NCBI GenBank assembly: GCA_001692895.1
Contig: KV748261.1
Coordinates: 124,001 to 188,000 of the forward strand
Reading direction: 5' to 3'
Source: Cenococcum geophilum 1.58
Taxonomy: Eukaryota > Ascomycota > Dothideomycetes > Gloniales > Gloniaceae
DNA length: 64,000 nt
This document shows positions 16,891 through 49,246 of the stretch, piece after piece. The notes beneath the pieces were generated by a model that had not been told where the DNA came from, ran no database searches, and worked only from the letters and a program-made list of their open reading frames with translations. The position numbers and the translations under genes were made by a program. Each line of letters starts with the position of its first letter. Position 1 is the stretch's first letter.

Positions 16891-16898
16891 AGGGGTAC

Positions 16899-22711: not shown

Positions 22712-24294
22712 GTACCCCCCCTTTAAACTCGAGCTTTTATAAGATAGGGCTATAGTAGTTTTAGGTAGAGTTTATAAAAGTCTTTTACGGCTTATATAAG
22801 TCCTATAGAGTTAACGGGTTCCTATAAGGGCTTAGTAAAGCCTCTCTATTTTATAAGGTATATATATTAGTATTTTTGTTTATTATACTTAATATTATTA
22901 ATTCTTTTAATAAAGTACTTATTTTTACTATCTACTTTAACTAGCAGGGGAGGGTCTTATATCTATCTAGGTAGGGTGTCTAATATATAGGGTAGTAGGG
23001 CGGAGAACTAACATATAGAATACGGGGTGGATTTTGACCATATTGGGGAGCTTTAATTAATAGGCGTAAAAGGAGACAACATTCTTAACCATATAAGAGC
23101 TAGCGTTCTTCTAATTAAGTTTCTTAGTAGGTTATTTTATATTTAAATTTCTTATATTTAGCTAAATAAAGTTACTAATTTAGTAGGCTAATACTAGGGT
23201 TTATTTCTTATTCGCTATAGCTTTATAGACAAATTAAGCCTATATTATTTTATTAGTAAAAAACTGTTATAGTTCCTCTATTTTCTAATTAATTTACTTT
23301 TGTAACTTATAAGGTATAATAGGTAAGGTAAGAAATATTACTAAAGGGATTAAAACCTATTTATAGATGCTAGCCGTAGTTAGCTAGAAATAGGGAGACC
23401 TTTATAGTTTCTAAAACGGAATTATTTGTAGTAAACTTATATTAAGAAGCGGGCTTCGGTACTAGGCGTAGTATATTATTATACAGTTTATTAATAACGT
23501 TTATATAGGCATTAAGGGCTCCTAATAGGTTCACGCCTATTAGGGAGGTTTTTAGTTTAGGGCTTAGGGATTTAATAAGGCTATTAATTAGTACGGAGTT
23601 ATTCTGGCCCATTTCCCTTACGTAATAGTTAAATTTAGAGAAGTATATTAGGAAACCTTTTGTTTTTTAAGCTATATAGTTTATCTTCCTTTAAGTAGTA
23701 GCTTAATGGTTTAGGTAACTATATATAGCTTTAAGAAGTATAACTAGGCTTTATACTAAGTTTAGCTAAAGGGGTTTAATAAGGTTAGCTACCTCTTCCC
23801 CTAGTTAACTTAGGGCGGAGTAAAGTTAATTAGCTTTAGTTAGGTAACAGTTAGCGTTACTAATTAGCTTATTTTTAAGCTAGTTTAAAAATAATTAGAG
23901 CTTTTATTATTTACTAGTAAATACTAGGGGATCTAATAGTTGTTTAAATCGTTATAGTATAGTAGTCGGCTTAGAGTAAGTAACTATTATAGGTTTAGGA
24001 CTTACGTTCTGCGTATTTATCTCTAGAGATAGCGTTTGGTCTTAAGGTCCTAGTATAAGCATCTTAAGGGTGCGAACTTCTTCTTAGAAGTCCTTAATTA
24101 ATTACTAATATTATACTTCTTATTTGGCTTATTATTAATTTAAAATAGCTTAGTTCTATATAAGGGCGTCTATAAAAGACTTCTATATCCCTACTAATTG
24201 TTCTTAGTATATAGATATAATACTAGCGGCCGTTATAGGAGCTTTGGGTTCGTTTTACATATTAATGGTAATATAGGTAGTTAATATAATATAG

Positions 24295-24660
24295 TATTAC
24301 GGAGTAAGTACAAGCGATAATAATATATAGTAAGGTAGATATTATTAAGCTATATACATAAAATATATAAGGAAGTTAAGACGTTGCGTAGAGAAAAAAG
24401 GGTATATATTATTAACTTAGTTGCTTAATTAACATATATACGGAGTAGGGTAGGATTTAGGTCTTAGTAGAACTTAGTAAGCTTCGTATCCTAGTAGGAC
24501 TTAGTAGGATTTAGTAAAACTTAGCGGAATATAGCGGAATATAGTAGAATATAGTAGATTGCCGTTAGATTACTATAGATTGCGGCAAATTGCGGTCTTA
24601 TAGTCGATCTCTAATTACTAAGTTAGTGGAAATAGGTAGATGTGTATAAAGTGTTACGGA
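24295..24660 (-). repeat. 5' LTR of gypsy family 1 copy b, split by insertion
   Basis: It begins TATTACGGAGTAAGTAC and runs to GTGTTACGGA, where the expected last bases are missing; they reappear at 26549-26565 (AGAGGTGTTCCGTAATA). This shows the satellite element inserted inside the LTR. Confidence 0.85.
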
Positions 24661-24968
24661 CATTGGGAAAATATGGTACCCTTTTAATAGCCTTAATGGT
24701 TGGTGGTTGACGCAATTGGCGCGCAGTTGAGGTCATTTGGCAACTCGACCGACTAGCCTATATCGTGTTTTTTTGACACGCAGCCTATACGCAGCCTGCG
24801 CGCAACCTGCCAGTAATCTGCGCCATTAGTAACTACAATTATATTTACCTCTTTTATATTAATAGCATATTTTAAATAAATAAAAGCTACTTTAAAGCTA
24901 TTTATAAGGCTAGCAAAATAAATATTATTATTTTAGATAATTTAATATAATATAGCGATGGTTCTCTT

Positions 24969-25305
24969 CTACCTATCTACCTATTAACTTACCTACCTAC
25001 CTGCATCGCCTACCTGTCTACATTGCCTACCTATCTATATCGCCTACCTATCTGCATCTGCTTACCTATCTGCATCTATCTACCTGTTTATATCTGCCTA
25101 CCTATCTATATCTACTTGCCTATCTATATCTACTTACCTATCTATATCTGCCTACCTGTCTATATCTGCTTACCTATCTATATCTACCTACCTATCTATA
25201 TCTACTTACCTGTCTATATCTACTTACCTATCTATATCTACCTACCTATCTGCATCTGCCTACCTATTAGCATCTCCCTATTTGTGCCTACCTGTCTATA
25301 CTACC
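24969..25305. repeat. (CTAC/CTAT/CTGT/CTGC)n microsatellite, copy A
   Basis: Tetranucleotide array of CTACCTATCTATAT-type variants with interspersed CTGCCTAC units. It gives a stop-free frame of repeating Tyr-Ile-Tyr-Leu-Pro, which is an artefact of composition. Confidence 0.92.
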
Positions 25306-25359
25306 TTAATTCGATCAATTAATCGAATCGTTTATAGTATTCGCTGGCTAGTCGTTATC

Positions 25360-25858
25360 GTCTGGCTCTGGCGACGGTCATCTGGTTCTAGCGACGGTCG
25401 TCTGGTTCTAGCGACGGTCGTCTGGCTCTGGCGACAGTCGTCTGGTTTTGGCGACAGTCGTCTAGTTTTGGCGACAGTCGTCTAACTCTAGAGACGATCG
25501 TCTGGTTCTGGCGACGGTCGTCTGGTTCTGGTAACGGTCGTCTAGTTCTAGTAACGGTCGTCTAGTTCTGGCGACAGTCGTCTGGTTCTAGTAACGGTCG
25601 TCTGGTTCTGGCGACGGTCGTCTAGTTCTGGTAACGGTCGTCTNGTTCTGGCGACGGTCGTCTGGTTCTAGCGACAGTTGTCTGGCTCTGGCGATAGTCG
25701 TCTGGCTCTGACGACGGTCGTCTAGTTCTGGCGACGGTCGTCTGGCTCTAGCGACAGTCGTCTGGTTTTGGCGACAGTCGTCTAACTCTAGAGACGGTCG
25801 TCTGGTTCTGGCGACGGTCGTCTGGTTCTAGCGATAGTCATCTAGTTCTAGCAACAGT
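25360..25858. repeat. 20-bp minisatellite, about 25 units, copy A
   Basis: Units such as TCTGGTTCTGGCGACGGTCG repeat in strict 20-bp register with CA/TG-type and other point variants (TCTAGTTCTAGTAACGGTCG). One N is present at about 25644. There are no spacers between units. Confidence 0.95.
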
Positions 25859-25984
25859 CCTCTGCTGGCTGCCGTTCTAGTGCCTCCCTAGATAGGGAGG
25901 ATATAAGGAAGGAAGGAAGGGTAAAAAATAAGGCGGCTATATAGGCAGAGACACATATAGACGCTATTGGGAATATAGCGGGGA

Positions 25985-26170
25985 CCCGATGCAGAGCTTC
26001 GTGTAGAGCCTCTGTACGCAAAGCTTCGCGCAGAGCCTTGTGCAGAGCCTTTGTACGTAGAGCTTCGTATAGAGCTTCGTGTAGAGCTTCGTGTAGAGCT
26101 TTATGTAGAGCTTCGTGTAGAGCTTTGTGTAGAGCTTTGTGTAGAGCTTCGTATAGAGCCTTGTATAGAG
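25985..26170. repeat. 12-bp AGAGCTTCGTGT array, copy A
   Basis: Tandem AGAGCTTCGTGT / AGAGCCTCTGTACGC variants directly follow the GGGGACCCGATGC boundary. About fifteen units, with C/T variation at the third-from-last positions. Confidence 0.93.
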
Positions 26171-26199
26171 CCTCTAAGTAATAAAACTGTATAAAAATT

Positions 26200-26480
26200 C
26201 ATTTGCGTAATTAGCATATAACTTTACCTTAATTGCATGTTAAGGAATATATAGTTAGCTTTTAAAGTTGTTAAATAGGTTAACTGCGTGTTAAGGAATA
26301 TACAGTTAGCTATTAAGTAGGTTAACTGCGTGTCAAGGAATATATAGTTAGCTTTTAAAGTTGTTAAATAGGTCAACTGCGTGTTATTTAACTTTTAGAT
26401 GTGTTAAATAGGTTAACTGCGTGTTATTTGACTTTTAGATGTGTCAAATTGGTCAATTGCGTGTCGAGTTGGTCAAATTG
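26200..26480. repeat. Degenerate repeats of GGTTAACTGCGTGTTAAGG, copy A
   Basis: Five to seven imperfect copies of a unit containing GTTAACTGCGTGTTA and GGAATATATAGTTAGC, with CAATTGCGTGTC variants near the right end. The same block occurs reversed at about 36585-36775 in copy B. Confidence 0.8.
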
Positions 26481-26565
26481 CATGTCAATTACGCGAAACG
26501 CGAAAACCAAAGTCTACTTAAATCTTATCCTGCGAATATTTTCCCAATAGAGGTGTTCCGTAATA

Positions 26566-27151
26566 GTAATATAGCTTTATAGAGAGGTTAAAGCTGCCTT
26601 TTACTTCTTATATTCCTTCTTTACTAGTTTATACCTTTTATAGAGAATTTAAGGCTTAGTTTTCTTATCTTTAGAAAGGGCCGTATATAATATTATTCTT
26701 AGCTTTATATTTTAAGGCCTAGAAAAGACTAGTTTAAGTAATTAAGGTAACTAATCCTATTTAGTTAAGAGGTTAATATATTTCTATATATCTCCTATTT
26801 AAGCTTAAAGCCTAATAAACTTAATATATTTATTATAATTAGCTTAGTTTAATAATATTACCGTTATAGTAATAGCTTAGGTAGGTTAATAAGTTATATT
26901 AAAAGGTGCTTATAAAGATTTTTTTTAATAATAAATAGTAATTTAATAAGGGGTAGAATTAATTAAATTAGTTAGTTAAATAAGTATAATATAATACGTT
27001 ACCCAGGCTTATAATTGCTAATTAAAAGATTAAAAGAAAAAGAAGAATAACTCTATTTTATTGCAAGTAGCTTTAGAGCTTATTATATACATTAAGTAGG
27101 TTTATTTAAAACTGGTACATTATTGCCACTTAATTAATATTAGGTAATAGG
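26566..27151. other. AT-rich RIPed remnant between insertions
   Basis: Starts with the right-hand GTAAT duplication and ends beside the left TSD of the copia element. It is very TA-rich with no conserved motif recognised. It should be the continuation of the relic interrupted at 22312. Confidence 0.4.
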
Positions 27152-27156
27152 TAATA

Positions 27157-27329
27157 TATTAGATACACAAGGGGGATATCACGTAGCTACGGTTCGTAGA
27201 TAGTATGATAATTGTTATTCTTGTTTCTTATAAAGAAAGGGGGAGGGCGAGGAACCTTAGGTTCCTCGCTACGGTAGTGCCGCGGCGACACGTAATGACA
27301 CGTGACGACCGCTTGCCTTATTCCCAACA
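27157..27329 (-). repeat. 3' LTR of copia derivative
   Basis: 173 bp with a GAACCTTAGGTTCCTCGC near-palindrome and GCCGCGGCGACACGTAATG. It is nearly identical to the other LTR except for a few transitions and a short indel near its outer end. Confidence 0.9.
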
Positions 27330-27490
27330 CTGGCAACTCTTCTTTTATAGTTACCATCTATATACACTTATAGATTGCCACTATACAAAGATACAAAGCT
27401 AAGGAAAAGAAGAAGATAAAAAAAGGACGTTAGGTTTAACGAGAATACAAAGGGAGTCGCTAAGGCGCTAGTAGTAAGCGAGCTAATAGC

Positions 27491-27517
27491 GATTTTCCAT
27501 GCCGGGCATGGAAAATC
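27491..27517. promoter_or_regulatory. 27-bp near-perfect palindrome in copia 3' region, function unknown
   Basis: The arms GATTTTCCATGCC and GGCATGGAAAATC surround a single central G, with CTGATTGG (an inverted CCAAT-type word) beside it. The same palindrome recurs at 36033-36059 with symmetric changes in both arms. It may be a hairpin or a protein-binding site; nothing here decides which. Confidence 0.6.
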
Positions 27518-27681
27518 CTGATTGGCTGGCAGAAGTTAGGGTCGGCAGAGTATNGTAGGAATTTGGNAGGTAGTACGCCCTAGGAAACTGTGTNGTTAAA
27601 ATAGGGTTGCGGAGCTAGCGGAGNGTAACTNGATACGGCTAGCTCGAGCAAATGGGAACGANAGTCGACCAATAGGAATGC

Positions 27682-27750
27682 TCTTGAATTGCCTTTGTCA
27701 TCGCATCTGCCGGGTTGTCTTGGCCACTAATCCATCGAATCCCAAAGAGT
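27682..27750 (-). pseudogene. C-terminal end of copia RNase H
   Basis: FGIRWISGQDNPADAMTK matches the end of the copia RNase H domain (IRWI-G-NPADAxTK). It is fused directly downstream of minisatellite-encoded Val-Glu-Val-Leu repeats. The rest of pol is missing. Confidence 0.8.
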
Positions 27751-27756
27751 TCTTGA

Positions 27757-28110
27757 TGCTCTACGAGAACCTCCACGAGAACCTCTGCGAGGACCTCCAT
27801 GAGGACCTCCACGAGGACCTCCATGAGGACCTCCACAAGGACCTCTGCGAGGACCTCCANGAGGACCTCTATGAGGACCTCCACAAGGACCTCTGCGAGG
27901 ACCTCCATGAGGACCTCCACGAGGACCTCCATGAGGACCTCTATGAGGACCTCCACAAGGACCTCTGCGAGGACCTCCACGAGGACCTCCATGAGGACCT
28001 CCACGAGGACCTTCATGAGGACCTCTATGAGGACCTCCACAAGGACCTCCATGAGGATCTCCATGAGGGTCTCCACGAGAACCTCTATAAGGGTCTCTAC
28101 GAGAACCTCC
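27757..28110. repeat. 12-bp/24-bp minisatellite of GAGGACCTCCAC type inside the copia derivative
   Basis: Tandem GAGGACCTCCACGAGGACCT variants (CATGAG, TATGAG, CACAAG, TGCGAG). All six frames are nearly stop-free, giving artefactual Glu-Asp-Leu-His, Gly-Gly-Pro or Val-Glu-Val-Leu strings. One N at 27860. Confidence 0.93.
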
Positions 28111-28199
28111 ATCAGTGCTTTGTAGCCGATATTGATCGTACCCTCTGCCGTATTCCAATTCCCTGCTAAACTTCTCCTGATCTTGTGGTGGTAACGTAG

Positions 28200-28500
28200 A
28201 TCTGGGTTGTTGCGGAGGTTGTTGCGGAGATTGCTGCGGAGATTGCTGCGGAGGTTGCTGCGGAGATTGCTGCGGAGGCTGCTGCGATGGATACAGAACT
28301 AAAGACAGAGGTGGATACTGGGGAACTGAAGACGGAGGTGGAAGCGATGGCTGCGGAACTAAAGACGGAGGTTATTGCGGATGTTGCCGCGGAGGTTGCT
28401 GCGGATGTTGCCGCGGAGGTTGCTGCGGAGGTTGTGGTTGCTGTGGAGGTTGCTTCGGAGCTTGTTGCGGAGCTTAATGCGGAGCTTGTTGCACAGGTTG
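28200..28500. repeat. GTTGCTGCGGAG-type repeat coding Gln/Pro-rich tract on minus strand
   Basis: Repeats of GGAGATTGCTGC / GGAGGTTGTTGC read [11 protein letters not shown] on the minus strand, continuing in the direction of the Gag ORF. Low-complexity linkers of this sort are common in fungal copia Gag, but here they seem to have expanded. Confidence 0.85.
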
Positions 28501-28548
28501 AGATACGGCAGCCTGAGGAACTTGAGGTGTTTGATAGCCTAAGGTTGT

Positions 28549-29004
28549 CTATAGTGTTGCTTGTGGCTGTCCGTTATTAGGATTCCCTCGAGAGTTAAAC
28601 TTCTTTTGGTGCTTAATCTCTTGTGGAGTCCATTTATGCTCTTCTTCTGCGTCAAGGACTTGCTGAATATTGTCTCTAATAGTACCCCCATTTATAGGGA
28701 TAAATACTCCTTTCTCCCGAAGGAAGTCTCGAAAATCTTGAATAATATAAATATTACCAAGTGCCCAGGTGTTGGCAGTCCATCCTATAAAATCCTCCCT
28801 AAAATATTCCCATAGCTGTAAATCGGTGTAGTATCTACTTTGGTAAAATAGAATACGGCGTAGAAAAAAGCCATTAACTTGTTTTGCGGTACAAGTTGCT
28901 ATATTAATGGTAAATTCGTCCCAATCTTTATCGATGAGTTTCGCGTACGTAGCTACTCCTAGTAGTAAGGAGTCTTTCCAGTTATTTAAGGTAGGCGTAG
29001 CCAT
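28549..29004 (-). CDS. Gag-like protein of copia element, open frame
   Basis: 151 codons from ATG at 29004. [20 protein letters not shown] opens the protein, followed by [39 protein letters not shown] and a hydrophilic tail ([18 protein letters not shown]). The helical, Trp-rich N-terminal arrangement fits the Gag region of fungal copia elements, and its place just after the 5' LTR leader supports this. No zinc knuckle is present in this frame. It is unusually intact for this region, so this element may have moved after most RIP, or escaped it as a low-copy family. Confidence 0.65.
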
Positions 29005-29352
29005 GTTTTTGGAGGGAGGGAAGTATTATTGGTGTAGGGATTGTCGTTTAGTACGCGTTTGTGACGTGTATTTGCGGTTATAGGGCTTAGGACCAGTTCT
29101 GGCCTTAAATCGCGAAGACTCGTAAAGCATATTATTCTGCGTAATGGACGCAAGAATCTGTAATCTGGGGAAGGCTCAGGACTAGTTCTGGCCTTTAGAT
29201 CCTTGGATTCGTGGAAGAGTTCTATTTAAGGTTTAGGACCAGTTCTGACCTTAAAAGACAGCTTCCTCTAGCACGAGTAGCACTGGTACAGTGGCTCATC
29301 TCTTCTTAGTGAAGACCTTGCTGTTCTGTGGTATAACAGTAAAGTTAACCAC

Positions 29353-29532
29353 TGATTAGTGGGGGATACATAAAGGGGATATCACGTAGCTACGGTTCGT
29401 AGATAGTATGATGATTGTTGTTCTTGTTTCTTGTAAAGAAAGGGGGAGGGCGAGGAACCTTAGGTTCCTCGCTACGGTAGTGCCGCGGCGACACGTAATG
29501 ATACGTGACGACCGCTTGCCTTATTCCCAACA
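29353..29532 (-). repeat. 5' LTR of copia derivative
   Basis: 180 bp, matching 27157-27329; ends CCCAACA on the plus strand. The right TSD TAATA follows at 29533-29537. Confidence 0.9.
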
Positions 29533-29537
29533 TAATA

Positions 29538-29921
29538 GAAGGGTAATAAAAATAATATAAAGTTATAAAGTAATAGGCGACTATAATAGAAATAGAGTAA
29601 TTACCAAAATCTGACCTAGATCGATAAAAAGTAAGTTATTAAAATTATAGGTAGAAAGGAGTAAAGTGACTATTTTTTAGCTTAACTAGTTTAACTTAAA
29701 CTAACGTATTTTAGATAAAATGCGACCGACTGCCTATATCTAATATTTTATATAATATAGCTATAACGTCGTTATTTAATGCAATAGATAGATGAGCTAA
29801 AGAGCTCTTACCTTGTAGTTTTTTTAAAATAATAACTAGACGTTATACGGAGGTCGCTAATAAAAAGTTCTTATACCTTCCTAATTAGGGAATCAATTTA
29901 CTAAGATTAACAAATATATAT
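29538..29921. other. RIPed remnant left of LINE 1
   Basis: AT-rich with no frame. It contains GTCGCTAATAAAAAGTTCTT near 29855-29880 and CTTCCTAATTAGG, which form an imperfect inverted repeat with 35451-35494 on the other side of LINE 1. The host element is unidentified. Confidence 0.4.
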
Positions 29922-29934
29922 ATTTATATATTTA

Positions 29935-35222: not shown

Positions 35223-35235
35223 ATTTATATATTTA

Positions 35236-36518
35236 TATAAATTCTAAATTAAAATTATTATATAATTAATAGTATTAAAGTAGTTATTATAACTTAAAAT
35301 TAATTAAAATTAATTATTGCTATAATTTACGCAGCCGGTATTACAGCTTACGCTATAGTGCTAAAAATTACGCATTTGTAGCGAGATCGTGTCTAAATTT
35401 ACGTAGGGTAGGCTAATAGCTACGCACTAGTGATTTCGCGTGCGCAGTCGCTTAATTTCCTAATTAGGAAGGTGCAAGAACTTTTATTAGCGACTTCTGT
35501 AAAAGGGTCGAGATACGGTAATAAAAAAGGTGATTTTAATGCTGCATTACCAGAGCTTGCCTAGGCGCGATTTTATCGTAAAATCTTACTTTACTAACAG
35601 CTTTATATTTTAATAAAAATCTAATTAATTATAGAGGAGACTAAAATAACTTACTCTTTTAACTTATTAGATTAAATTAACGTTATTAAGTAGTTAAAGG
35701 GTCTCTGTATAAAATTATAATAATTTAAGTTAAGCATTACACTATAGGCACTTAGACGGTAGGGTAGACTTAAGGCCGGTAAATAGCTGATTGGTTAAAA
35801 AACAGTGGCGTTTTCTTAGACTGAGACTAGTAACACTTTAGTATTAGTGCGTGCGCCTTAAGCTATTTAAGTTACTACTGTGATAAAAGCTGCCCGTCTC
35901 TCTATTAACCTTCTCCACTTATTAATAAACGGCGAATAGCTCGTCTTTTTAACAGAAAAGAATCTTACTCTAAATCTCAGCTCGCATTGTGACGGTGCTG
36001 GTGCGCGTCACCTACCACATTCAACCAATCAGGATTTTCTATGCCCGGCATAGAAAATCGCTATTGGCTCGCTTACCACTAGCGCCTTGGCGGCCCTCGC
36101 GACATGTCTACCTACTGCCCCTAAACGATTCTCCTTCTTCTTCTTCTCCTTAGCTTAGTATCTTTACTAGATAGCAATCCACAAGCTTCGGTTTAGAGGC
36201 ATTTGTGCGAGCCGTCATACGCATCTTATATATCCGGGTATAGCTAAACATTAACCCGAAAATGATACCTACGTACTTAGTCGCAATCACGCTGCGGCCT
36301 TAAGGTAAAAAATACCTAGTTTTAGACCAAACTAGGCCACATTTCTAACTAACTATTAAGGTATAGGCTAAACTACTAATTCTACTTATAGAAAGACACG
36401 CTTAGATTTAACCTTTACCTAAGTATCCTAACCCTAAAGCCAGACGCTCGGATTGCTAATGTTACTATTAGGACTAGGTATTTTATAAACTGCGAAAACA
36501 GATCCTTAATAACTGTGC
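35236..36518. other. RIPed mosaic right of LINE 1, with a copia fragment
   Basis: 35451-35494 is the inverted partner of 29855-29900. From about 35980 to 36190 the sequence matches the minus strand of the copia derivative near its 3' end (palindrome, GCTCGCTTACCACTAGCGCC, CTTCTTCTTCTCCTTAGC), so it is a copia fragment in plus orientation. The remainder is AT-rich and unidentified. Confidence 0.5.
36033..36059. promoter_or_regulatory. Second copy of the 27-bp palindrome
   Basis: The arms GATTTTCTATGCC and GGCATAGAAAATC differ from the 27491 copy by one change in each arm at mirrored positions, so pairing is kept. CCAATCAG lies directly upstream. Confidence 0.6.
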
Positions 36519-36584
36519 ATCGGGAAAATATTCGCAGGATGAGATTCAAGTAGACTTTGGTTTTCGCGTTTCGCGTAATTGACA

Positions 36585-36775
36585 TGCAATTTGACCAACT
36601 CGACACGCAGTTGACCTACTTGACATGCAATTTAGCCCCAACTTAACACGCAGTTAACCTACTTGACAACTTTAAAAGCTAACTATATATTTCTTAACAC
36701 GCAGTTAACCTACTTAGCAACTTTAAAAGGTAACTGTATATTTCTTGACATGCAATTAAGGTAAAGTTGTATGCC
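36585..36775. repeat. Degenerate CACGCAGTTAACCTACTTG repeats, copy B
   Basis: Reverse-complement equivalent of 26200-26480: repeated CACGCAGTTAACCTACTTG and GCTAACTATATATTTC units. Confidence 0.8.
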
Positions 36776-36827
36776 AATTACGTAAAATATATATAATCTT
36801 ATACAATCTTATATTGTTTTATTACTT

Positions 36828-37332
36828 AGAGGCTCTACACACAAGCCTCTACACGAAGCTCTACGTACAGAGGCTCTGCACGAAGCTCTACACGAAGCTC
36901 TGCACGAAGCTCTGCACGAAGCTCTGCACGAAGCTCTGCACGAAGCTCTGCACGAAGCTCTGCACGAAGCTCTGCACGAAGGCTCTGCACGAAGCTCTGC
37001 ACGAAGCTCTGCACGAAGCTCTGCACGAAGCTCTGCACGAAGCTCCTGCACGAAGCTCTGCACGAAGCTCTGCACGAAGCTCTGCCACGAAGCTCTGCAC
37101 GAAGCTCTGCACGAGGCTCTGCACCGAGGCTCTGCACGAGGCTCTGCACGAGGCTCTGCACGAGGCTCTACATACAAGAAGCTCTGCGTACAGAGGCTCT
37201 GCACGAAGCTCTACACGAAGCTCTACGTACAGAGGCTCTGCACGAGGCTCTATACGAAGCTCTATGTAGAGGCTCTGCACGAGGCTCTGCGCGAAGCTCT
37301 GCGTACAGAGGCTCTACACGAAGCTCTGCCTC
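36828..37332. repeat. 12-bp AGCTCTGCACGA array, copy B
   Basis: About 40 units of CTCTGCACGAAG, very homogeneous and hardly RIPed, with CTCTACGTACAGAGG variants at both ends and a few single-base indels that shift register (near 36980, 37045, 37083 and 37123). The array is stop-free in most frames, so the overlapping open frames are artefacts. Confidence 0.94.
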
Positions 37333-37694
37333 GGGTCCCCGCTATATTACCGATAGCCTCTACACGTGCCTCTACCCTGTAGCCACCTTATTTTTTACCC
37401 TTCCTTCCTTACATTCTCCCTACCTAGGGAGGCACCAGAACAGTAGCCAGTAGAGGACCGTCGCCAGAACTAGACGACCGTTGCCAGAACCAGACGACGA
37501 CCGTTTGAATGACCAGCCAGCAAACACCACGAATGATTCAATCAATCGATCGATCGAATTGAACCAGAGCTTTAATATTGGCCTGTCACCGAATAAAATC
37601 AAGGCCTCCTCCTAGGGAGGCACTCTAGACGACCACCGTTTGAATGTAATCAGGGCCTTCAATCGGGCCGACCCCTCCCCCAAATTGAATCATA

Positions 37695-37967
37695 TTTCAG
37701 CCAGGTAGGTATCAATCAAATGACATAAGCTGGCTGGTAGGTAGAGACACAGAATTGTACGAGTGATCTGTCCTATTCAAGGTGGCTCTCGAGGGTCTAT
37801 ATATACACGAGGAAGATGCTAGAATAGGAAAGGAGGGAGGTACAGGCAACAGAGATACGTACTAAGACATACGAAATACGAGGGTAAGCACTAGGGTAGT
37901 CTTTATATAGGGTACTAGGCATTAAAGACAATTGTAATACGGTCGAAAGCTACCTCCGTGGCTAACA
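37695..37967 (-). repeat. 3' LTR of copia element
   Basis: 273 bp, with GGTAGGTAGAGACACAGAATT and CTACCTCCGTGGCTAACA. It is the less mutated of the two LTRs. Confidence 0.9.
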
Positions 37968-38181
37968 TACCCCCTTAGATCTGACGTAGAGCGGCAGAGC
38001 TGGATTACCAGATTAGGCAGTCGGGATAGACAACCTGGTGGTGAGCTTTGCTGCTGTCCGAGTGTTAATTTACCAGATGTCTAATATCGCGGAGCCCTAC
38101 TACATTAACGAATTTTTGATGATTTTACTTTAAGAGAGCTTTAGTTAGTCTATCTGCAGCCATTTTGCTTGTCGGTACCCA

Positions 38182-38433
38182 CTATACAACAAAGCTTCTA
38201 TTTTGGACCTCTTGGCGAAGCCAGAATTGATAGATATCTACATATCGGAGCTTTGTAGATACCGTAGGAGTCTCTTTTATCACAATCCGTACTAACTGCT
38301 GATTATTATAATTAATAATAACGTCCTGTTCTAGGTTGAATCTAATGGCCTTAAATATCCGCACTATATGCTTGACCTCCCTACTAACGTATAAGAGAGC
38401 TAGGAGTTCTGCCTCCGTAGTAAACTTAGTCAC
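38182..38433 (-). pseudogene. RNase H segment of the copia pol, locally intact
   Basis: MTKFTTEAELLALLYVSREV, then FNLEQDVIINYNNQQLVRI and TPTVSTKLRYVDIYQFWLRQ match the copia RNase H core (TKSSTEAEL..., DNQQ, KHVDI..HFxR). 83 codons are open while the rest of pol carries many stops. The catalytic Asp of the DNQ motif reads Asn (NNQ), so even this part is inactive. Confidence 0.85.
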
Positions 38434-41400
38434 TACCTTTTATCTAGTTGCCTGCTATGCTATAGGCCCATTAAATAAGCTTATTAAGAAGCCCTATAAG
38501 CTCCAACGTGTTAGAGCATCGTCAGCAAAGCTAGCATTAAAAGCAGCTTTTAGAACCTAGTTTATCTTATACAGCGTAATAGTAGAGAACTCAAGAGCGA
38601 GGTATCTGGTATCGTAGAGATAGGTAAGCAATCTGTTAATCTCCATAAGATAAGCTGGTGACAGATTTTATAAGAACTTAGCTAGCTTACTAACAGAAAA
38701 AGCGATATCTAGTTGTGTAGTAGATGTAGGATACGTTATAGAACCTATACGGCGTTGATATTCTTTTATCTGATTTAGCATAGCTTCTCCTTCGTATAGT
38801 GTTAATTCTTGGCCCGATAGTAGTGTAGCTAATAGCTTTAAATATTCTAGATGGTATACCGAGACTAGCTTCTTAAGATACTGATCTAGACAGAGCTAGA
38901 GCTTTCCCTTTTGTTGATCTCGCACAACACGAGTATTTAGGAATGACGTAAATTAAGGTATTTTGCGGATCTCGAATCGATCTTATAGCTGCTTTAGGAT
39001 GTCCTCCATCTACTGTTGACAGCTTAGGTGTCCTATAATTAGGATGTCGTTAACGTAAAAGAATATAAAGATAGGTTTAGTAGGGTGTATATAGAGATAT
39101 AGCTTATCCGGTACCGCTTTTAAACCTATACTTTGTAGAGCAGCAGACATTTCCAAAAATTATAATTTTAGAGATTTCCGTAGTCCGTATATTGCCTTTC
39201 TTAGATAGAGAGAGAATCTAGGTAGTAGGTCTACACCTTTAGGGGGAATAAAGTAGACCTTATTGTCAACCAAGGCATTAATAAAGGCGTTAACGGCGTT
39301 AATCTGTATGACGTCTAGGTTAAAGCTGGCGATAAAAGCGCAGAGTAGATGGAAGGTCTAATAGGCTGCCGTAATAGCTTTAACCTCCTCTTGTAAGACT
39401 GCTTAAAGGTCTCCGCGGATAACTAGATAAGCTTTAAATCTTATAATAAAGCCGTCTAAATCTTCCTTATACGTAAAGACCTATATAGTAGGAAGTTGAT
39501 AAACCTTTTTAACTAGTCATACCTTGTCCCAGGTATGTTTTCCTATTAAGGCCTTTATTTTAATATAAGCAGCTACTTTAAACTCCGTAGCGTACCTATA
39601 ATTAAGCATCTCTTTCTATAACTTTGGTGGTGGTGGAAAGTCGTCTTAATGTCCGTATGTTTTTATAGCAGTAGTATAGAATGCGTAAGCCAATGGTGTC
39701 GTATCTAGATTAATAATATCATTACTATTACTGTTTTAAACCGCAAAGGCTCATCGTTATAGATCCTGATTTGGTATATCTTTCTTCTTTACTATAAGCC
39801 GCTTTTCACGGCTAGAATGTCTCTTACCCCCTAATAATAAGCCTGCTGTCGTCTAAGGTTCGGAATGAGGTATAAGGTCTATAAACGGTAATTCGGTGAC
39901 TTTAGAAGATAACTAAGTAGTAGATAATATCTGTGGCGTAGATGCTACCGTAGATAGTAATTGCTAAGGCGCCGAAGACGCTGATAGTATAGACGGTTCT
40001 AAAGTTAGCTCTGGGGTAGGTAGCTGACGGAGTTCTTCTGTTAAGATTTGAATGCTTTTTAACGTAGGAGTAACGTCGATACTTACTAAATGCGGCAGTT
40101 TTACATCCAGTTTTTCGTTAAAGTTCTCTATCTAGTCCTTGCTGCCATCTTAAAAATTATCTAGTAGGTCCTAGACTTATTAAAAACGGTCCTTTTAAGC
40201 CTATAAGATAATAAGGTGTTCTGGTGTTTCGGGAGATTAATATCTCTTTAACTTATTAATTCGTACATCACGAGATCGGATAATGCGGTTAGTAGTTAGT
40301 ATCTATATCCTATAGATATTTAACGCTTCTATACTAACGAGATAGCCTATTTAGGCTTATAGCTTAAACTTTGCCTTCCTAGAAATGCCATATTTAATAA
40401 GTATATAGGTTAAAGATCCGGCTATATAAAGCCCTGCTAGCTATAGCTTCCGTTTATATAGTATCTTAAATAGGGTCTTTTAGTTAATGGACTTAATGGG
40501 AGTTTAATTGAGTAGAAACACTGCAAGGAGCATAAACTCGGGCCATAGATTTACGGGTAACTTTGCTTTAATAATAGCAGTCCTTACTTATTTGGAAATG
40601 GCTCTCCCTAACCTCTCTATAGGTCTATTTTAAGCAGGAGTATCTAGTATTAATTGCTTAATAATACCTCTATTAAGCTAGATAAGGTTCTTTACCCTAG
40701 CGCCTATACCTTACTCCTTATCTATATACCAAATACGGATACCTTAAGTATTAAATTTCTTCGTAAATGCTATTATTGATTTAAAGAGTGGAAATAGCGT
40801 CTCTTGCTTATAGTTCTTAATAGGAAAGGCACGATGGTACTTTATATAGTTATACTAAAAATGAGCTATATATATATCTCCATTAAACCCGTCTTCTTCT
40901 ATAATAATATTAAAGTGTACACGTTTAAAAGGGTAGGTTCCCTTTATAGATATTCTGTAAAATATCTGCTATATTATCTTTTTAAAAACATATGGTTTAT
41001 AAAGTGGTATACTGTACAGAGTTCTTCCTCTATCTGTCTTGACCACCTTAACCCTATTTGCCGCAGTCGGCAGATAATCTACTAACTCTATATCGCAGTA
41101 TAGTAAGCGCTAATGCTATACTTTGTTATATACTGAGGTCTTAAAGAATCTGGTAGACGTAGCGTAGGTAGTAGGAGTAGGTAGTAAGCAGGTAATAGCA
41201 TTAATGAGGTAAAGACCTCCGTATTCTATAAGGTTGGTAAATAGGCTTCCGTCATCCTTATAGTGTAGGTGGTTTGTAGATTAGTCTATAATTACTCTAA
41301 CCCTATAAAGCTTCGCTGCGGATATTAGATTGGTATAAAAATAAGGAGCGTATACTATATTCCTTAATATCAGATACCTAGTTAGACGTTATTCACCCAC

Positions 41401-42944
41401 CTTAATGGCTAAGTTGATATTACTATATCCATAGATTTCTGCTCTAGAATCTCCAGCCGTTACTATAGACATGCTTAGCTTAAAGTTATGAAAGTATCTA
41501 ATATTGTTGCAGAAGTAGGTGTCTGCTATAGTGCTATACCCCTAGGCGTTAATTAAGGACAGATCTGGATGTTCCTGCGATAATGACGATAAGTAGGATG
41601 TTGTTACAGCAGCCGCTGTAGCTCGGGGCCTATCCAGATCCTTGATCCTTTTAGTAGAAGCTAGAGACGCCCTTAACTTAGGGCCTTCCTTCTTAATCTG
41701 CTTAACCCTTTTGTTATAATACTACTTGTTTGTTGGGCCCTTAAGCCATTCCTAACACCTCCGTAAACACTTGTCATTTAGTACAAAGTTTGGACCTTAA
41801 AGAGACTAAAATAGCTACTTGCAATTCTTTAACTTATAGGGTAAACCACAAGTAAAACACTTTGCTTTAGGTAATTGAGAAGGTGCTAGGGTAATAAACG
41901 TTGTAGGATCTATAAACGGCTACCCTAATAGTGTAGCATGGGCGTTATGTCCCGTATTTGGATACTTATAGAGGAGGTTAAATTCCTTAATTATTGTCAA
42001 CATTTTAAGCTTCTCTAACCTCTTCACTATCTTCTAGATGAAGGTATGGTATAGAGCTAGATAGATCTCCTTATAGTCCTAGATAAAGGCTTATATAACG
42101 CTGCCTTCTATTACCTCTATTAGCCCTTCCTCTAGCTCTTCGCCGTTTTATATTATAGTAATATAAAGCTAAAGCTATAATTCTAGAGTCTAACATTTAG
42201 GCCCTTGTTTCCGTTTCCTAAGATTGTCTAATACCATCTGCTGTAATGTAGCTTAAGATAGCTTTGCTACCTTCTTTAACTGTCTTACAATTAAATATAG
42301 TGTGGTAAGGTTCTTAAGATACCCTAAGAAGTTGGTGCCTATGGTGGCATGCAAAAGTGCTGCGAACGTGTAGAGCTTCTCTTCCCGCTTTAGGTAGTCC
42401 TGTTGTTATAGCTTATAGAGCTTAAAGAGCATTCTCTATATCTCTAAAGATTGCTAAGGTTGTTGTTCTTATTAACTTAATAACCTAGGTATAGCTGTTC
42501 TAGTAGACGCTAGAGTTACTGCTAGAGCTATAGGGTCCGCTACTAGTGCTATAGGGTCTGTAGGTGCTGCTATAGGTGCTATAGGAGCTGCCGGTGCTAC
42601 TATAGGAGCTATAAGAGCTGCTGCTATCGAAGGTATAGCTAGCTCAGTGTTTTGCTTAATTTCGTTCTCCGTCTTATCTAGGTTAACGTAGTCCCAGATC
42701 TTCGCAAAACTTACTTCTTAACGGATAAATTAAAACTATATAGGCTAGTCTTTCTAGGTTAGCAAAAGAGGGTTTATAGAGTCCTTAGTTGCTATATTAG
42801 CTTTTATTTTAAGGTTATATAAAGAGACGCGCTTACGCGTAAAGCACGCGATATTTTATAACAAACTATGCTTAAAGAGGCTTAGTGGTAGTCGTCTGGC
42901 CACTAAAATCTCCTTAGTGCTTAGAAGGTTACTAGGCTTATAAC

Positions 42945-43217
42945 TTTTAGCTAGGTAGGTATTAATCAAATAATATAAGCTGGCTGGTAGGTAGAGACAT
43001 AGAATTGTATAAGTAATCTATCCTATTTAAGGTGGCTCTTAAGGGTCTATATATATATAAGGAAGATGCTAAAATAGGAAAAGAGGGAGGTATAGGTAAT
43101 AGAGATACGTACTAAGACATACAAAATACGAGGGTAAGCACTAGGGTAGTCTTTATATAGGGTACTAGGCATTAAAGACAATTATAATACGGTCGAAAGC
43201 TACCTCCGTAACTAACA
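42945..43217 (-). repeat. 5' LTR of copia element
   Basis: 273 bp, same length as the partner; differences are mostly C-to-T or G-to-A (for example CCGTAACTAACA against CCGTGGCTAACA). Confidence 0.9.
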
Positions 43218-43231
43218 TTATACACTAACAC

Positions 43232-43292
43232 AGGCAGGCAGGTAGGTAGGTAGGTAGGTAGGTAGGTAGGTAGGTAGGTAGGCAGGTAGGTA
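43232..43292. repeat. (GGTA)n microsatellite next to copia insertion
   Basis: Clean (GGTA)n / (GGCA)n run of about 15 units between the copia LTR and the 20-bp minisatellite of copy B. Confidence 0.93.
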
Positions 43293-43445
43293 GAAGAGGA
43301 CCGTCGCTAGAACCGGACGACCGTCGCTAGAACCGGACGACCGTCGCTAAAACTAGACCACCGTTACCAGAACTAGACGACCGTCGCCAAAACCAGACGA
43401 CCGTTGCTAGAACTAGACGACCGTCGCCAGAGCCAGACGACAACG
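43280..43445. repeat. 20-bp minisatellite, copy B
   Basis: About eight units of CGACCGTCGCCAGAACCAGA, the reverse complement of the unit in copies A and C. Confidence 0.92.
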
Positions 43446-43499
43446 ACTAGCCAGCGAACACTATAAACGATTCGATCGATTAATCGAATCAAGATAGCA

Positions 43500-43815
43500 T
43501 AGATAGGTAGGCATAAACAGAGAGATGCTAATAGGTAGGTAGATATAATAGGTAGGTAGATATAGACAGGTAGGCAGATATAGATAGGTAAGTAGATGTA
43601 GATAGGCAAGTAGATATAGATAGGTAGGCAGATACTAACAGGTAGGCAGATATAGATAGGTAGGTAGATGTAAATAGGTAGGCGATATAGACAGGTAGGC
43701 AATGCAGACAGGTAGTTAATGTAAATAGGTAGGCAATGCAGACAGGCAGGCAATGCAGATAGGTGGGCAATGTAGATAGGTAGGCGATGCAGGCAGGTAG
43801 GTAAGTTAATAGGTA
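43500..43815. repeat. (GGTAGATA)-type microsatellite, copy B
   Basis: Reverse-complement equivalent of 24969-25305, with GGTAGGCAGATATAGATA variants. Confidence 0.92.
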
Positions 43816-44117
43816 GATAGGTAGAAGAGAACCATTGCTATATTATATTAAATTATCTAAAATAATATTTATTTTACTAGCCTTATAAATAGCTTTAAAG
43901 TAACTTTTATTTATTTAAAATATGCTATTAGTATAAAAGAGGTAAATATAATTATGGTTGCCAAATGCGCAGATTGCTGGCAGGTTGCGCGTAGGTTGCG
44001 TGTCAAAAAAACACGACATAGGCTAGTCGGTCGAGTTGCTAAATGCCCTTAACTGCGCGCTAATTGCGTCAACCACCAACCATTGAGGCCATTGGTAGGG
44101 TACTATATTTTGCCAAT

Positions 44118-46119
44118 ATGCTTATATTATTTTTTAGTATCTAGCTATTAGACCTCGCTTATTATCTACTAAAATCTATATAGCTTAATGGATTTAATAT
44201 TAACATTTCCTAGTTCCCGCCTGTATACTAGCTCCCCCCTAATATAAATATTAGAACTTAGGATATATTCTAAAATATACCTATTAACTTTATTAGAAAA
44301 TTTAATATTATATATATAAGACTAATCGGGCTAGTTATTAAAGATAATAATTCCCTTTTAGTAATATATAGCTTATATAAGTTACTTAGTAATATACCTT
44401 ACTTTTAGTTATAAGAAGACCTACTACTAATATCTATAAAGCCTTGCGAATATCTTTAACGGGATAAGATAAATAATACTTTATCCTTTATTACTTCTAT
44501 TAATCCAATAATTAAAACAGAAGTAGTTAAAGCGATATATTAATATATATATACTCCTAAAGGGGATATTAAGGGGCTATATAAGTAAGCATCCTTATAT
44601 CTTATAGAGTTTATGCTAAAATAAATTAGATAGAGATATTAACTTGCAACCTTTTTAAGGTAGCATAGCTTTAAGGAGGCTAAGCTTTATAAATATTAGA
44701 CTAACCTTAGTATAACGAGGTTTTAGACTAATAAGTAAGCTATTACAGCTATCCTAGGATTCGATGCTAAAAAGTCTTTAGCTATATAGCCCTTATAAAA
44801 GAATTCACCGGAAAAGTACTAAAAGGCACTAGAGAAGCTTCTAGGGCCTACTAAATCGTTAAGAACGCGGCAAATAAAGCTAAGCACGGTGCTGCAATTG
44901 TTATTCTATAGCTTATAGTAGTAGCTAGGAAAAGTTTCGGCTAGCCTAAATCTTAGAGAAAGCGTTAGGGTAATTAAAAAGCTCTAGAAATAGAGGGATA
45001 TCGACTATATTAGAAGGCTATCTTTGGATACTTTGCCTTGCTTAATATCTCAATTCTTATATACGTGGTATTGCGTTATTTATTCTAAAAGTTATTTCAG
45101 GACGGCGTATTAAGCTTAATATATTTTTTTTTATACAGAAGAGATCTAAGGGAAGAAACGATATATGTCTTTGGGCATTTCCGTCAACTTATACGTTTAG
45201 TATAACGGAACCTTATAGCAGGAACTACGGTGGGCTCATTCTTAGGCTAGGTATGTAGGTAAAGCAAGTTAAAGTCAACAATGTAATAATAACTAGTGGA
45301 GTGGTTGCCCAATAAATTAACTCTAATTGTATTCTAAGAATTACTATAAGGAAGGAACTATCTAGGTAGGGACTGTAATCCTTTAAATACACAACTATAC
45401 TCCTATGAAATCCTTCTTGTATATAATATACGTGTGCTTTATCTACTCTATTATGGATTACACAGATCCTACAGATCGTATAGATCGCGTCGTGTGACCT
45501 TAGTTACTATTCCTCATCATATAGTTCTATCGGCTCCATTCTGGACCGTGCCTAAATTAACCAACTAGCTTCTTCTAACTCTTCTCCTAGTAGTCGTAAT
45601 ATTGTACTTAAAGCGTCCGTAACATTTAGGAACTTTAAGGCCGACTTCTTTAGTAGCTCTAGGCAAGTATAAACCAAATCACCACACTAATGCTATTGAA
45701 ATTATAACATATCCTCTATTAGGAGATATTAGTTTAACCTATAAACAGACTTACTAATAAGCAAACAATTTAAATTATAAATCTTCGGTTTGACTAACTA
45801 GGTATCTTAAAGCTTTAAGCTTATTTAATTCGTTTAGTTAATTAGACTAGCAAATGGTTTAGTTCGATTTAACTATTTATATATATTTATATACATTTTT
45901 ACATAATAGTAGAAGGATCTAGGAGCTCTACGCTATAATTTAGTAATAGGCGTTTAGTATTATAATACTTACGCTAAGCATAAAAGTTAATAAAGGAAAT
46001 ATAATTAATTACTCTTAGTATTAATATTGGTTACTATAATAGTATCTAACCATTATATAAGGATAGCTTAATATAGTATAAATTATATCTTATTATTGCT
46101 CTAGTAGTTTTTAAAAAAG
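44118..46119. other. Unidentified RIPed element remnant
   Basis: About 2 kb of AT-rich sequence. Plus-strand frames around 44840-45260 look once-coding (NAANKAKHGAAIVIL, then RDIDYIRRLSLDTL and QELRWAHS with stops at Trp/Gln-like positions), but I could not assign them to RT, integrase or a known transposase. No flanking LTR or inverted end was found. From 45880 the sequence becomes nearly featureless. Confidence 0.35.
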
Positions 46120-46325
46120 ATTACATTAGGATTTTTTTTTGTGGCAGGTTGTTACGGTTTGCCGCAAATTGCCGCAAACTGTACAATCGCGGCGGTTGTA
46201 TATTGTCGTTAGCGATTTATACAAACCGCGCATTTTGCAACAAGTTTGCAGCGTCTACTAGTAAATTACAGCAAAATGCTTAACTACCAAACCAATGCTA
46301 GTATTTTGCTACCCTACAATTATAT

Positions 46326-46415
46326 AGCGCGCAAACTGTATAAACTGTACGAACTNTACAAACTGTACAAACTGTATAAACTGTGTAAACTGTACGAACT
46401 ATACAAATTATAACT
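46326..46415. repeat. 10-bp AAACTGTACA tandem repeat
   Basis: About eight units of AAACTGTACA / AAACTGTATA / GAACTGTACA with one N near 46356, within the left outer part of copy C. Confidence 0.85.
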
Positions 46416-46525
46416 ATATAAATTATTATTATATTATATAGTAACTAAATTATCACATATTTCCATAGATTGCTATAATATACTTTTAAATATATTTATA
46501 TTATAACTATATAAAATATAAAGCT

Positions 46526-46755
46526 ATCTACCTACCTACCTACCTACCTACCTACCTACCTACCTACCTACCTACCTGTCTGTCTGTCTGTCTGTCTATC
46601 TATACCTACCTATCTATGCCTACCTGTCTATGCCTACCTGTCTATACCTACCTGTCTATGCCTACCTATCTGTGCCTACCTATTTATGCCTACCTGTCTA
46701 TGCCTACCTACCTATCTATACCTACCTGCCTATGCCTACCTGTTTATATTACCTT
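46526..46755. repeat. (CTAC/CTGT)n microsatellite, copy C
   Basis: A pure (CTAC)n run, a short (CTGT)n run and then CTACCTGTCTATGC variants. Confidence 0.93.
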
Positions 46756-46814
46756 GATTCGATCAATCGATCAAATCGTTTATAGTGTTCGCTGGCTGGT
46801 CATTTAAACGGTTG

Positions 46815-47891
46815 TCGTGTGGCTCTGGTGATGGTTATCTGGCTCTAGCGACGGTTATCTGGCTCTAGCTCCGGCCGTTTAGCGATGACGACGGTCGTCT
46901 AGCTCTAACCGGTCATCTAGTAATAGCGACGGTCGTCTAGCTCTAACGACGGTCGTCTAGCTGTGGCGACGGTCATCTGGCTCTAGCTCCGGCCGTCTGG
47001 CTCTGGCGACGGTTGTCTAGCTCTGGCGACGGTTATCTGGCTCTGGCGACGGTCATCTAGCTCTAGCAATGGCCGTCTGGCGATGGCGACGGTCGTCTGG
47101 TAATGACGACGGTCGTCTAGCTCTAACCGGTCATCTGGTAATGGCGACGGTCGTCTAGCTCTGACGACGGTCGTCTAGCTGTGGCGACGGTCATCTGGCT
47201 CTGGCTCCGGCCGTCTGGCTCTGGCTCCGGCCGTCTGGCTCTGGCGACGGTCGTCTGGCTCTGGCGACGGTCGTCTAGCTCTGGCGACGGTCATCTGGCT
47301 CTGGCGACGGTCGTCTGGCTCTGGCGACGGTCATCTGGCTCTAGCGATGGCCGTCTGGCGATGGCGACGGTCGTCTAGCTCTGGCGACGGTCGTCTGGCG
47401 ATGACAATGGTCGTCTAGCTCTAACCGGTCATCTGGCGATGACAACGGTCGTCTAGCTCTAACCGGTCATCTGGCGATGGCGACGGTCGTCTAGCTGTGG
47501 CGACGGTCATCTGGCTCTGGCTCCGGCCGTCTAGCTCTGGCGACGGTCGTCTAGCTCTGGCGACGGTCGTCTGGCTCTGGCGACGGTCGTCTAGCGATGA
47601 CGACGGTCGTCTAGCTCTGACGACGGTCATCTGGCTCTGGCGACGGTCGTCTAGCTCTAACAACGGTCGTCTGGCTCTAACGACGGTCGTCTAGCTCTGG
47701 AGACGGTCATCTGGCTCTGGCTCCGGCTGTCTGGCTCTGGCGACGGTCGTCTGGCTCTGGCGACGGTCGTCTGGCTCTGGCGACGGTCGTCTGGCGATGG
47801 CGACGGTCGTCTGGCGATGGCGACGGTCGTCTGGCGATGACGACGGTCGTCTAGCTCTAACGACGGTCGTCTGGCGATGGCGACGGTCGTC
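46815..47891. repeat. 20-bp minisatellite, about 53 units, copy C
   Basis: Units alternate among several types: GCTCTGGCGACGGTCGTCTG, a GGCTCCGGCCGTCTG type, a GCGATGGCGACGG type and a shortened 18-bp CTCTAACCGGTCATCTGG type. Blocks of the same succession recur (for example around 46900 and 47120), indicating duplication of multi-unit segments. Confidence 0.95.
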
Positions 47892-48059
47892 CGCCGGCCG
47901 TCGTTCCGGTGTCTCCTTAGGTAGGGAGGATGTAAGGAAGGAAGTGTAAAAAATNAGGTGGCTACCTAGGTGGATATAGGGGGTATACTTNGCAGAGGNA
48001 CGTGTAGAGGCTATCGGGAATATAGCGGGGACCCGATAGTAATATGTCGCACGCACACA
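47892..48059. repeat. Conserved spacer between the two satellite arrays, copy C
   Basis: Contains GGTGTCTCCTTAGGTAGGGA, GGATGTAAGGAAGGAAG, GGTGGCTACC and GGGAATATAGCGGGGACCCG. Equivalent sequence lies at 25859-25990 (copy A) and 37440-37333 (copy B, reverse). Confidence 0.85.
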
Positions 48060-48955
48060 TAAAGGCTTTGTATACAGCTTCGTGTAGAGCCTCCATACGT
48101 AGAGCTTCGCGCAGAGCCTTGTGCAGAGCCTTGTGCAGAGCCTCTATATATAGAGCTTTATATAGAGCTTNNTAGAGCTTTATANAGAGCTTTATATAGA
48201 GCTTCGTGCAGAGCCTTGTATAGAGCCTCTATATGCAGAGCTTTATATAGAGCCTCGTATAGAGCCTTATATAAAGCTTCGTATAGAGCTTTATGTAGAG
48301 CTTCGTGCAAAGCTTTATGTAGAGCTTCGTGCAGAGTTTTATATAGAGCTTCGTGCAGAGCTTCGTACAGAGCTTCGTGTAGAGCCTCGTGCAGAGCCTC
48401 TATACGCAGAGCCTCGTGCAGAGCCTCTGTACGCAGAGCTTTATGTAGAGCCTTGTGTAAAGCCTCGTGCAAAGCTTCGTGTAAAGCTTTACGTAGAGCT
48501 TCGTGTAGAGCTTCGTGTAGAGCTTCGTGCAGAGCTTCGCGTAGAGCCTCGTACAGAGCCTCTATACGCAGAGCTTCGTATAGAGCCTTGTGTAGAGCCT
48601 CGTGCAAAGCTTCATGTAGAGCTTTGTGTAGAGCTTCGTGTAGAGCTTTATACAGAGCTTCGTGTAGAGCTTTATGCAGGGCTTTATGTAGAGCCTCGTG
48701 CAGAGCCTCTATACGCAGAGCTTTGTGTAGAGCCTTATGTAGAGCCTTATACAAAGCTTCGTGTAGAGCTTCGTGTAGAGCTTTATATAGAGCTTCGTGT
48801 AGAGCTTTGTGTAGAGCTTCGTATAGAGCTTTATATAGAGCTTTATATAGAGCTTTATATAGAACTTTATGCAGACCTTTGTATAGAGCCTCGTGCAGAG
48901 CCTTTATACGCAGAGCTTTATATAGAGCCCCGTGCAGAGCTTCGTGCAGAGCTTT
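48060..48955. repeat. 12-bp AGAGCTTCGTGT array, about 75 units, copy C
   Basis: AGAGCTTCGTGT, AGAGCTTTATGT and AGAGCCTCGTGC variants, with CTCTATACGCAGAGC spaced at intervals. TTCG-to-TTTA style changes are much more frequent here than in copy B. Overlapping open frames up to 258 codons arise because 12 is a multiple of three. Confidence 0.94.
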
Positions 48956-49246
48956 TGTGGTATTTTTGTTGCAGCTAAAAATTAGGGTTTAGCAATTTAC
49001 GGCGATTTGCACGAGTAGCCTGTGTGTTTGTAGTAAATCGCTGCAAATCGCCGCAAATTGCCAAAATTGCGACTTACGCAGGTTTTGCAGACCCCGATTT
49101 TCGCTTGCGACAACGTGCCCAAAATTTTTTTTCCTGACGTATATAACTCTAATTTTAATATAGAGGTTTCTTATATAAAGGTACTTAAAAAATCAATCGC
49201 CTGCTATAATAGTGGTAATATTAATCTAGCTATATAGCTAATCCTT

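Follow-up and report, generated by a model that had tools for sequence, protein, structure and literature searches.

Helitrons are defined by having neither inverted ends nor target duplications, and DINE-1/Helentrons carry internal repeats. For elements of the PlavakaB type, PMC12730594 gives termini of CATCA..TGATG and target duplications of 2 or 3 bp. We have examined a stretch of DNA from Cenococcum geophilum 1.58 (assembly GCA_001692895.1, contig KV748261.1, positions 124,001 to 188,000), referred to here as the window (64,000 nucleotides; coordinates without a contig or locus name are positions in it), that contains three blocks of ordered tandem repeats, termed A, B and C. These blocks are mobile non-autonomous DNA transposons with hundreds of copies in the genome. 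It appears highly probable that A and B on one side and C on the other represent two related non-autonomous cut-and-paste kinds of element that are moved by Plavaka transposases, and that cores and ends have recombined between families. The newer part of these observations is an A-ended copy, L033, whose core is nearest to the core of C-ended copies.

Ends, target duplications and dispersal

Block A (24661..26549, plus strand) is a whole A-type element of 1889 bp, delimited by its ends and by a 2-bp target duplication. The left inverted end, 24661..24674, reads CATTGGGAAAATAT here, the right one occupies 26536..26549 in the opposite orientation, and both direct reading and the duplication test place the duplicated GA at 24659..24660 and at 26550..26551. 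A reading made earlier from the letters alone (the sequence-only reading) had noticed a 13-bp inverted terminus in A and B; the ends are indeed inverted, and the A-type end, CATCGGGAAAATAT, is 14 bp long and extends one base further out. Block B (36518..44118, minus strand) is an A-type element flanked by TG (36516-36517 and 44119-44120) and split by a retrotransposon. Block C (46124..49139, plus strand), a whole C-type element flanked by TA (46122-46123 and 49140-49141), is a second kind of element beside A. C-type ends start with CATCAGGA, the left end being CATCAGGATTTTTT and the right end TCCTGATG or TCCTGACG. The terminal 8 bp, CATC[AG]GGA, and a 2-bp duplication are common to the A and C types; beyond the terminal bases the two kinds of end could not be aligned, so that the earlier view of the C ends as unrelated holds for the inner sequence only.

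We searched the genome, 177,193,698 bases in 162 contigs, with the core spacer described below, and obtained 1314 first-look candidates that extend far beyond the source contig; all of the 40 that were scored matched at 94-100%. Twenty core-match loci were taken with ~5 kb on either side. The A left region was present in all 20 (in L018 its inner part only) and some of the A right region in 19; both ends were present at 16 of them, with two copies at L015, which together with blocks A and B makes 19 complete copies. The two bases flanking the A-type ends were identical in 20 of 21 copies (the 19 complete ones plus L033 and L034), as compared with 3.0 on average and never more than 10 in 10,000 shuffles, and the duplicated bases were varied (CA, GA, CG, GT, CT, TC, TG, AA, TT). 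A 2-bp duplication was likewise observed in 10 of 12 copies with other ends (C, 7/9; C2, 2/2; D, 1/1), being TA five times, GT and AG in C, and GT and AA in C2.

Exact A ends numbered 284 (left) and 295 (right) genome-wide, as against 0 and 1 for reversed-pattern controls, so that chance is excluded; end patterns that tolerate repeat-induced point mutation (RIP) gave 440 and 539, with controls of 0 and 4. When 96 left ends (contigs C13 and C14 left out) and 100 right ends among those listed were paired, at least 48 pairs spanned 1558-3456 bp, with a median of 2393. Copies lay on every one of contigs C1-C14 and beyond, with outer flanks that differed by eye. Of the 24 elements flanked by 60 bp or more on each side, 10 had unfilled paralogous sites, in which the flanks are joined with one copy of the duplication (weak matches for L015b, L027 and block C were excluded), and at least one gapless match each was obtained for L009, L011, L017, L022, L028 and L032. 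Block A also has such sites, which brings the total to 11 of the 24 tested. The sequence-only reading placed it inside a gypsy long terminal repeat (LTR) that continues on either side; an LTR-like repeat does host it, with unfilled relatives at 22538-22714, 16896-17062 and 11303-11443, yet the match of its flanks to these three copies stops 10-17 aligned bases past the junction. In the aggregate, the 2-bp duplications and unfilled sites bear out the suggestion that the unit has moved and is one of a dispersed family. Further A-like ends with a matching duplication were sought in the fetched sequence and none were seen beyond the known copies, save two chance-like pairs at L015.

The A-type copies differ from each other in a RIP-like manner. 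Relative to a reference line that was picked to favour C and G, which itself biases the count toward C>T and G>A, such changes made up 104 of 121 differing cells in the left 130 bp of 19 A-type copies and 80 of 94 in the core of the same number of copies. By context in the left region, CpA was changed in 70 of 436 cells, CpC in 0 of 283 and CpG in 22 of 341. Such mutation could be used to help date copies.

Several other insertions and rearrangements were seen in and around these elements. The Ty1/copia element nested in block B (37695..43218, minus strand) has 274-bp terminal repeats at 37695-37968 and 42945-43218, which are 90.9% alike, and an RVT_2 match at 2.4e-20. At ~3900-4160 of L018, the outer left end of an A-type copy has been replaced by other sequence. 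A ~3.1-kb element with 117-bp inverted ends (CAGTCGCTTYRGAAAAGGATG) adjoining TA is inserted in the A-type copies of L033 (155-3295) and L034 (2392-5532); the long A-ended spans of these two loci, 4,964 and 5,585 bp, contain this nested element and were rejected as carriers of a transposase partner. In the window, direct repeats of 168 bp at 27162-27329 and 29365-29532, 96.4% alike, surround 12-bp tandem arrays detected with Tandem Repeats Finder (TRF), and the 27162-29532 segment is possibly a small LTR-type element.

The satellite core and its combination with different ends

On the plus strand of block A, TRF located a CTAC-type array with 18/54-bp periods at 24968..25275, a 20-bp array at 25358..25864 and a 12-bp array at 25993..26171. 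Between the first two lies a CGATCAAT block, or CGAT block, at 25311..25328, found by reading and module scan, and between the last two the core spacer, 25865..25990, with a CCTCCCTAG palindrome from 25883 and a GCGGGGACCCGAT motif at 25972-25990. Block C, also on the plus strand, has a CTAC array followed by a 14-bp array (46524..46747), a 20-bp array (46814..47891) and a 12-bp array (48099..48955), all from TRF, with its core spacer at 47892..48037 according to alignment and module scan. TRF and direct reading agree with the sequence-only reading that A, B (reversed) and C share one order: CTAC array, CGAT block, 20-bp array, CCTCCCTAGGTAGGGAGG palindrome, GCGGGGACCCGAT motif and 12-bp array. 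By median match position this order recurs in 25 of 27 scanned elements (19 A-type with B counted in, 5 C, 2 C2 and 1 D), a set that is not random, most members having been chosen by match to the block A core or to C ends; L013, L015b, L019, L029, L030 and L032 each had one or two modules under the match threshold. The exceptions were B, through its interruption by the retrotransposon, and L021, through a stray second CGAT match. A further minisatellite near the right end (26229..26488, plus strand; TRF) is confined to A-type copies among the short elements, and also occurs in the Plavaka-coding elements that we read.

Array sizes varied widely, from 4 to 42 detected units of the 20-bp array and from 6 to 48 of the 12-bp array in 18 uninterrupted A-type copies, and element length correlated with summed array span at 0.93 (17 A-type copies; B and L015b left out). 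Between the ends of the A/B and C elements we recognised the satellite core and no genes. The earlier suggestion of a non-autonomous DNA transposon carrying satellites is borne out, and the satellites are most likely passengers that are renewed by slippage and exchange.

It had also been proposed that the core occurs with different termini, and A, C, C2 and D ends were all found around it. In the D type (L019, 7744-9861) the subterminal sequence differs while the core is as in the other types. The ends read CATCA in C and C2, as does the right end of D, although C right ends are often CGTCA. First-look candidates genome-wide numbered 231 for the C-type left region, 438 for the C-type right region and 218 for the D right region, of which 40 were scored in each case. 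Core pattern matches totalled 766, with 1 in the control, and among 100 listed an A-type end lay in register for 34.

We compared 30 aligned core spacers (L029 being largely N; identities ignore gaps). The core of L033, a copy with A ends that was chosen for its length, was 98.3% identical to that of C-ended L031 and 97.8% to that of the C2 copy L050, whereas among typical A copies the closest, L016, reached 95.5%, and L011 91.6%. L033 shares with the C and C2 copies a ~24-column segment that typical A copies lack, and it is without the extra 4 bp of the latter. Block B and L034, neither of which had been chosen as a core match, had their own closest relative in L033 (92.9% and 92.3%), and in a core tree L033, L034 and B fell together with C, C2 and D at a support of 0.94. 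The best alignment of L033 with L031 extends over 332 columns at 92.8%, from the last 20-bp units into the 12-bp array. That an A-ended copy has a core nearest to those of C-ended copies argues that cores or ends have been exchanged. Either this took place, plausibly within the arrays, or an old core was retained in some A copies.

The second alternative, in which a single satellite-carrying ancestor passed on core and ends as one, the ends diverged beyond recognition and some A copies kept the older core with no exchange at all, has a real though lesser chance of being correct. It is consistent with the same module order in each type, with an alignment of L033 to block A that covers 602 columns of core and arrays at 84%, and with the closeness of L016, whose 95.5% is near the 98.3% of L031 and weakens the case for exchange. 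Yet the segment shared by L033 with C and C2, the missing 4 bp and the grouping on the C side speak for exchange, as do A and C ends that are unalignable beyond their terminal bases.

The core also contains ATCGGG-AATATAGCGGGGA-CCCGAT (25972-25990 and 48019-48037), in which the end motif of the element itself occurs as two inverted copies 13 bp apart. Few stretches of the alignment are as constant as this pair, which is nearly invariant across element types and may be the relic of a minimal insertion or a putative binding site. A bolder interpretation, which we regard as rather unlikely, is that the core is a selfish cassette that switches between Plavaka carriers by way of the arrays as recombination handles, with the ATCGGG..CCCGAT pair serving its use or upkeep. 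If true, a whole ordered satellite set would spread through the genome by changing carriers.

Plavaka and other candidate movers

A profile search with PF18759 gave 123 scored Plavaka matches from 266 candidates, and matches in 0 of 14 control genomes. Among 100 listed A-right ends, at least four lay 2.10-2.21 kb from a same-strand Plavaka domain, where the expectation for a domain within 15 kb is ~0.010 per end. We also observed, with RIP-tolerant ends on contigs C1-C5 (76 left and 99 right among those listed), that a Plavaka domain lies within A end pairs of 19,966, 19,966, 19,998 and 23,026 bp, and within one of 19,935 bp on contig C10. End patterns thereby place Plavaka-coding elements of ~20 kb at C10:374438-394372, C1:6268551-6288516, C4:3751388-3771353 and C4:3823054-3843051. 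In five cases (contigs C1, C4 twice, C7 and C10) the left end and the domain were 16,939-16,980 bp apart; the distance was 16,749 bp in a second case on C7 and 19,974 bp on C5. Some 17 kb of the ~20-kb elements thus lie upstream of the transposase domain. Reading the right 8 kb of the elements on C5 and C10 showed that their last 34 bases are the same as in A copies such as L028, that the right minisatellite of A is present, and that the right 357 bp of A aligns at 68-69%; the C10 stretch gave the domain at 4.1e-38. A Pfam scan of L056 returned Plavaka only.

For the C type, 3 of the 40 scored left ends (C39:1230453, C64:392463 and C4:3244865) lie 6.00-6.26 kb from a Plavaka domain on the strand opposite to the end, while for A-type ends the domain is on the same strand; this suggests another Plavaka family. 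By comparison with PlavakaB, duplications of a length within its range are found in A and in C/C2/D copies, and a transposase in long same-ended elements is indicated for A by patterns, position and the right-8-kb reads, and for C by left ends only. The sequence of the termini, the length of the duplication and the long elements bounded by matching end patterns point to Plavaka, so that the family, which the sequence-only reading had placed outside the standard transposon classes, has within a known class a candidate transposase with matching ends. The most fitting view of A and C is that they derive from two or more Plavaka families and have become loaded with satellites. In the mechanism that we propose, Plavaka transposases (CACTA/EnSpm-related), encoded at other places in the genome, would move the A/B and C elements by recognising ends that start CATC[AG]GGA and inserting them with a 2-bp stagger; the satellite core would travel along with array lengths that differ between copies, and core and ends would have recombined between families, most likely within the tandem arrays.

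Some observations weigh against the assignment to Plavaka. No Plavaka transposase match was free of stops: all 123 scored ones contain them when read without regard to introns, and we infer that the coding elements are now dead. Other A-type ends lie 9.7-14.9 kb from Plavaka domains or outside them, with no constant spacing, and A end pairs of 17,311, 17,874 and 18,569 bp had no Plavaka match, the latter two holding a core match. The left ends of the Plavaka elements are placed by a 21-bp pattern and position, and the reads cover the right 8 kb of two elements (2 kb more in one), with a two-sided duplication unseen; the left end of the C5 element was not within 10 kb of its right end, the pattern placing it ~20 kb from the domain. 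A C-type right end was not found in the 2 kb searched past the Plavaka domain of contig C39. Finally, A ends read CATCG, or CATCA after mutation, where PlavakaB has CATCA, a difference in the fifth base. A RIP-tolerant core pattern was unmatched in the three 20-kb elements within its listed range (C1, C4, C4), a weak negative, as the same pattern misses 17 of 37 short A pairs and the core of D. The 14-bp end with other neighbours, sought as a sign of a partner, gave 7 genome matches against 9 for the reversed control.

Movement of the family by Tc1/mariner-type elements, which target TA, might be thought of since TA is the commonest C-type duplication, and we consider it very improbable: A has many duplications other than TA, C has GT and AG and C2 has GT and AA, so that the duplications are not confined to TA. 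No more credible is a Mutator-like element (MULE) as the partner of C. A MULE transposase domain (2.2e-9) does occur between C-like ends in L024, in an element at approximately 5692-9690, but this has its own ends, CGGAGAGTCCCCGGGC, and a 9-bp duplication, GAAAATCGG, within a short C-ended element that has C-right sequence at each end, and is therefore nested. Membership of the family in Mutator was rejected as well, the duplications here being 2 bp and not ~9 bp and the sole MULE read being nested. A Helitron-like carrier, as once suggested, was rejected on the inverted ends and 2-bp target duplications. Segmental duplication, or a satellite nursery at a centromere or subtelomere, the latter also raised by the sequence-only reading, would accord with three blocks lying within 25 kb of the window, but has next to no chance against dispersed copies that have precise ends and differing flanks and that lie inside repeats with unfilled versions. 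The observations call for neither a centromere nor a Helitron nor a new class.

Comparison with described systems

The elements form a genuine mobile family with clear boundaries, one that belongs to a superfamily of a known kind and is unusual in its ordered satellite load and in the evidence for recombination between core and ends. Their hundreds of copies are a natural record of the ways in which satellites are carried, ordered and spread by DNA transposons, and they make core swapping between transposon families testable. They also tie the little-studied Plavaka superfamily to a large non-autonomous load, and to ~20-kb coding elements, in an ascomycete. PubMed Central yielded no account of Cenococcum geophilum with a transposon and a terminal inverted repeat, and the excerpts seen there on fungal non-autonomous Plavaka make no mention of satellites.

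With PlavakaB as described in PMC12730594, A and C share a 2-bp duplication and a transposase in long same-ended elements, and their termini agree with it in part, in the form CATC..GATG; they differ in the fifth base, G in A, and in being non-autonomous and filled with ordered satellites, and the PlavakaB families described there are from Agaricomycotina, whereas the present host is an ascomycete. DINE-1/Helentrons resemble our elements as very abundant non-autonomous elements and differ in being described as rolling-circle ones, whereas those described here have inverted ends and 2-bp duplications. The BrickBuilt miniature inverted-repeat transposable element of Porphyromonas gingivalis (PMC4596501) likewise has a minisatellite inside a miniature inverted-repeat element, but it is bacterial, with one 23-bp array and 19 copies in one strain. 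Tetris of Drosophila virilis (PMC4079207) is similarly a modular non-autonomous DNA transposon with internal tandem repeats of varying number; yet it belongs to the foldback elements, its inverted ends holding a single 220-bp repeat, whereas in the elements of Cenococcum geophilum several dissimilar arrays lie in a constant order between ends that are short.

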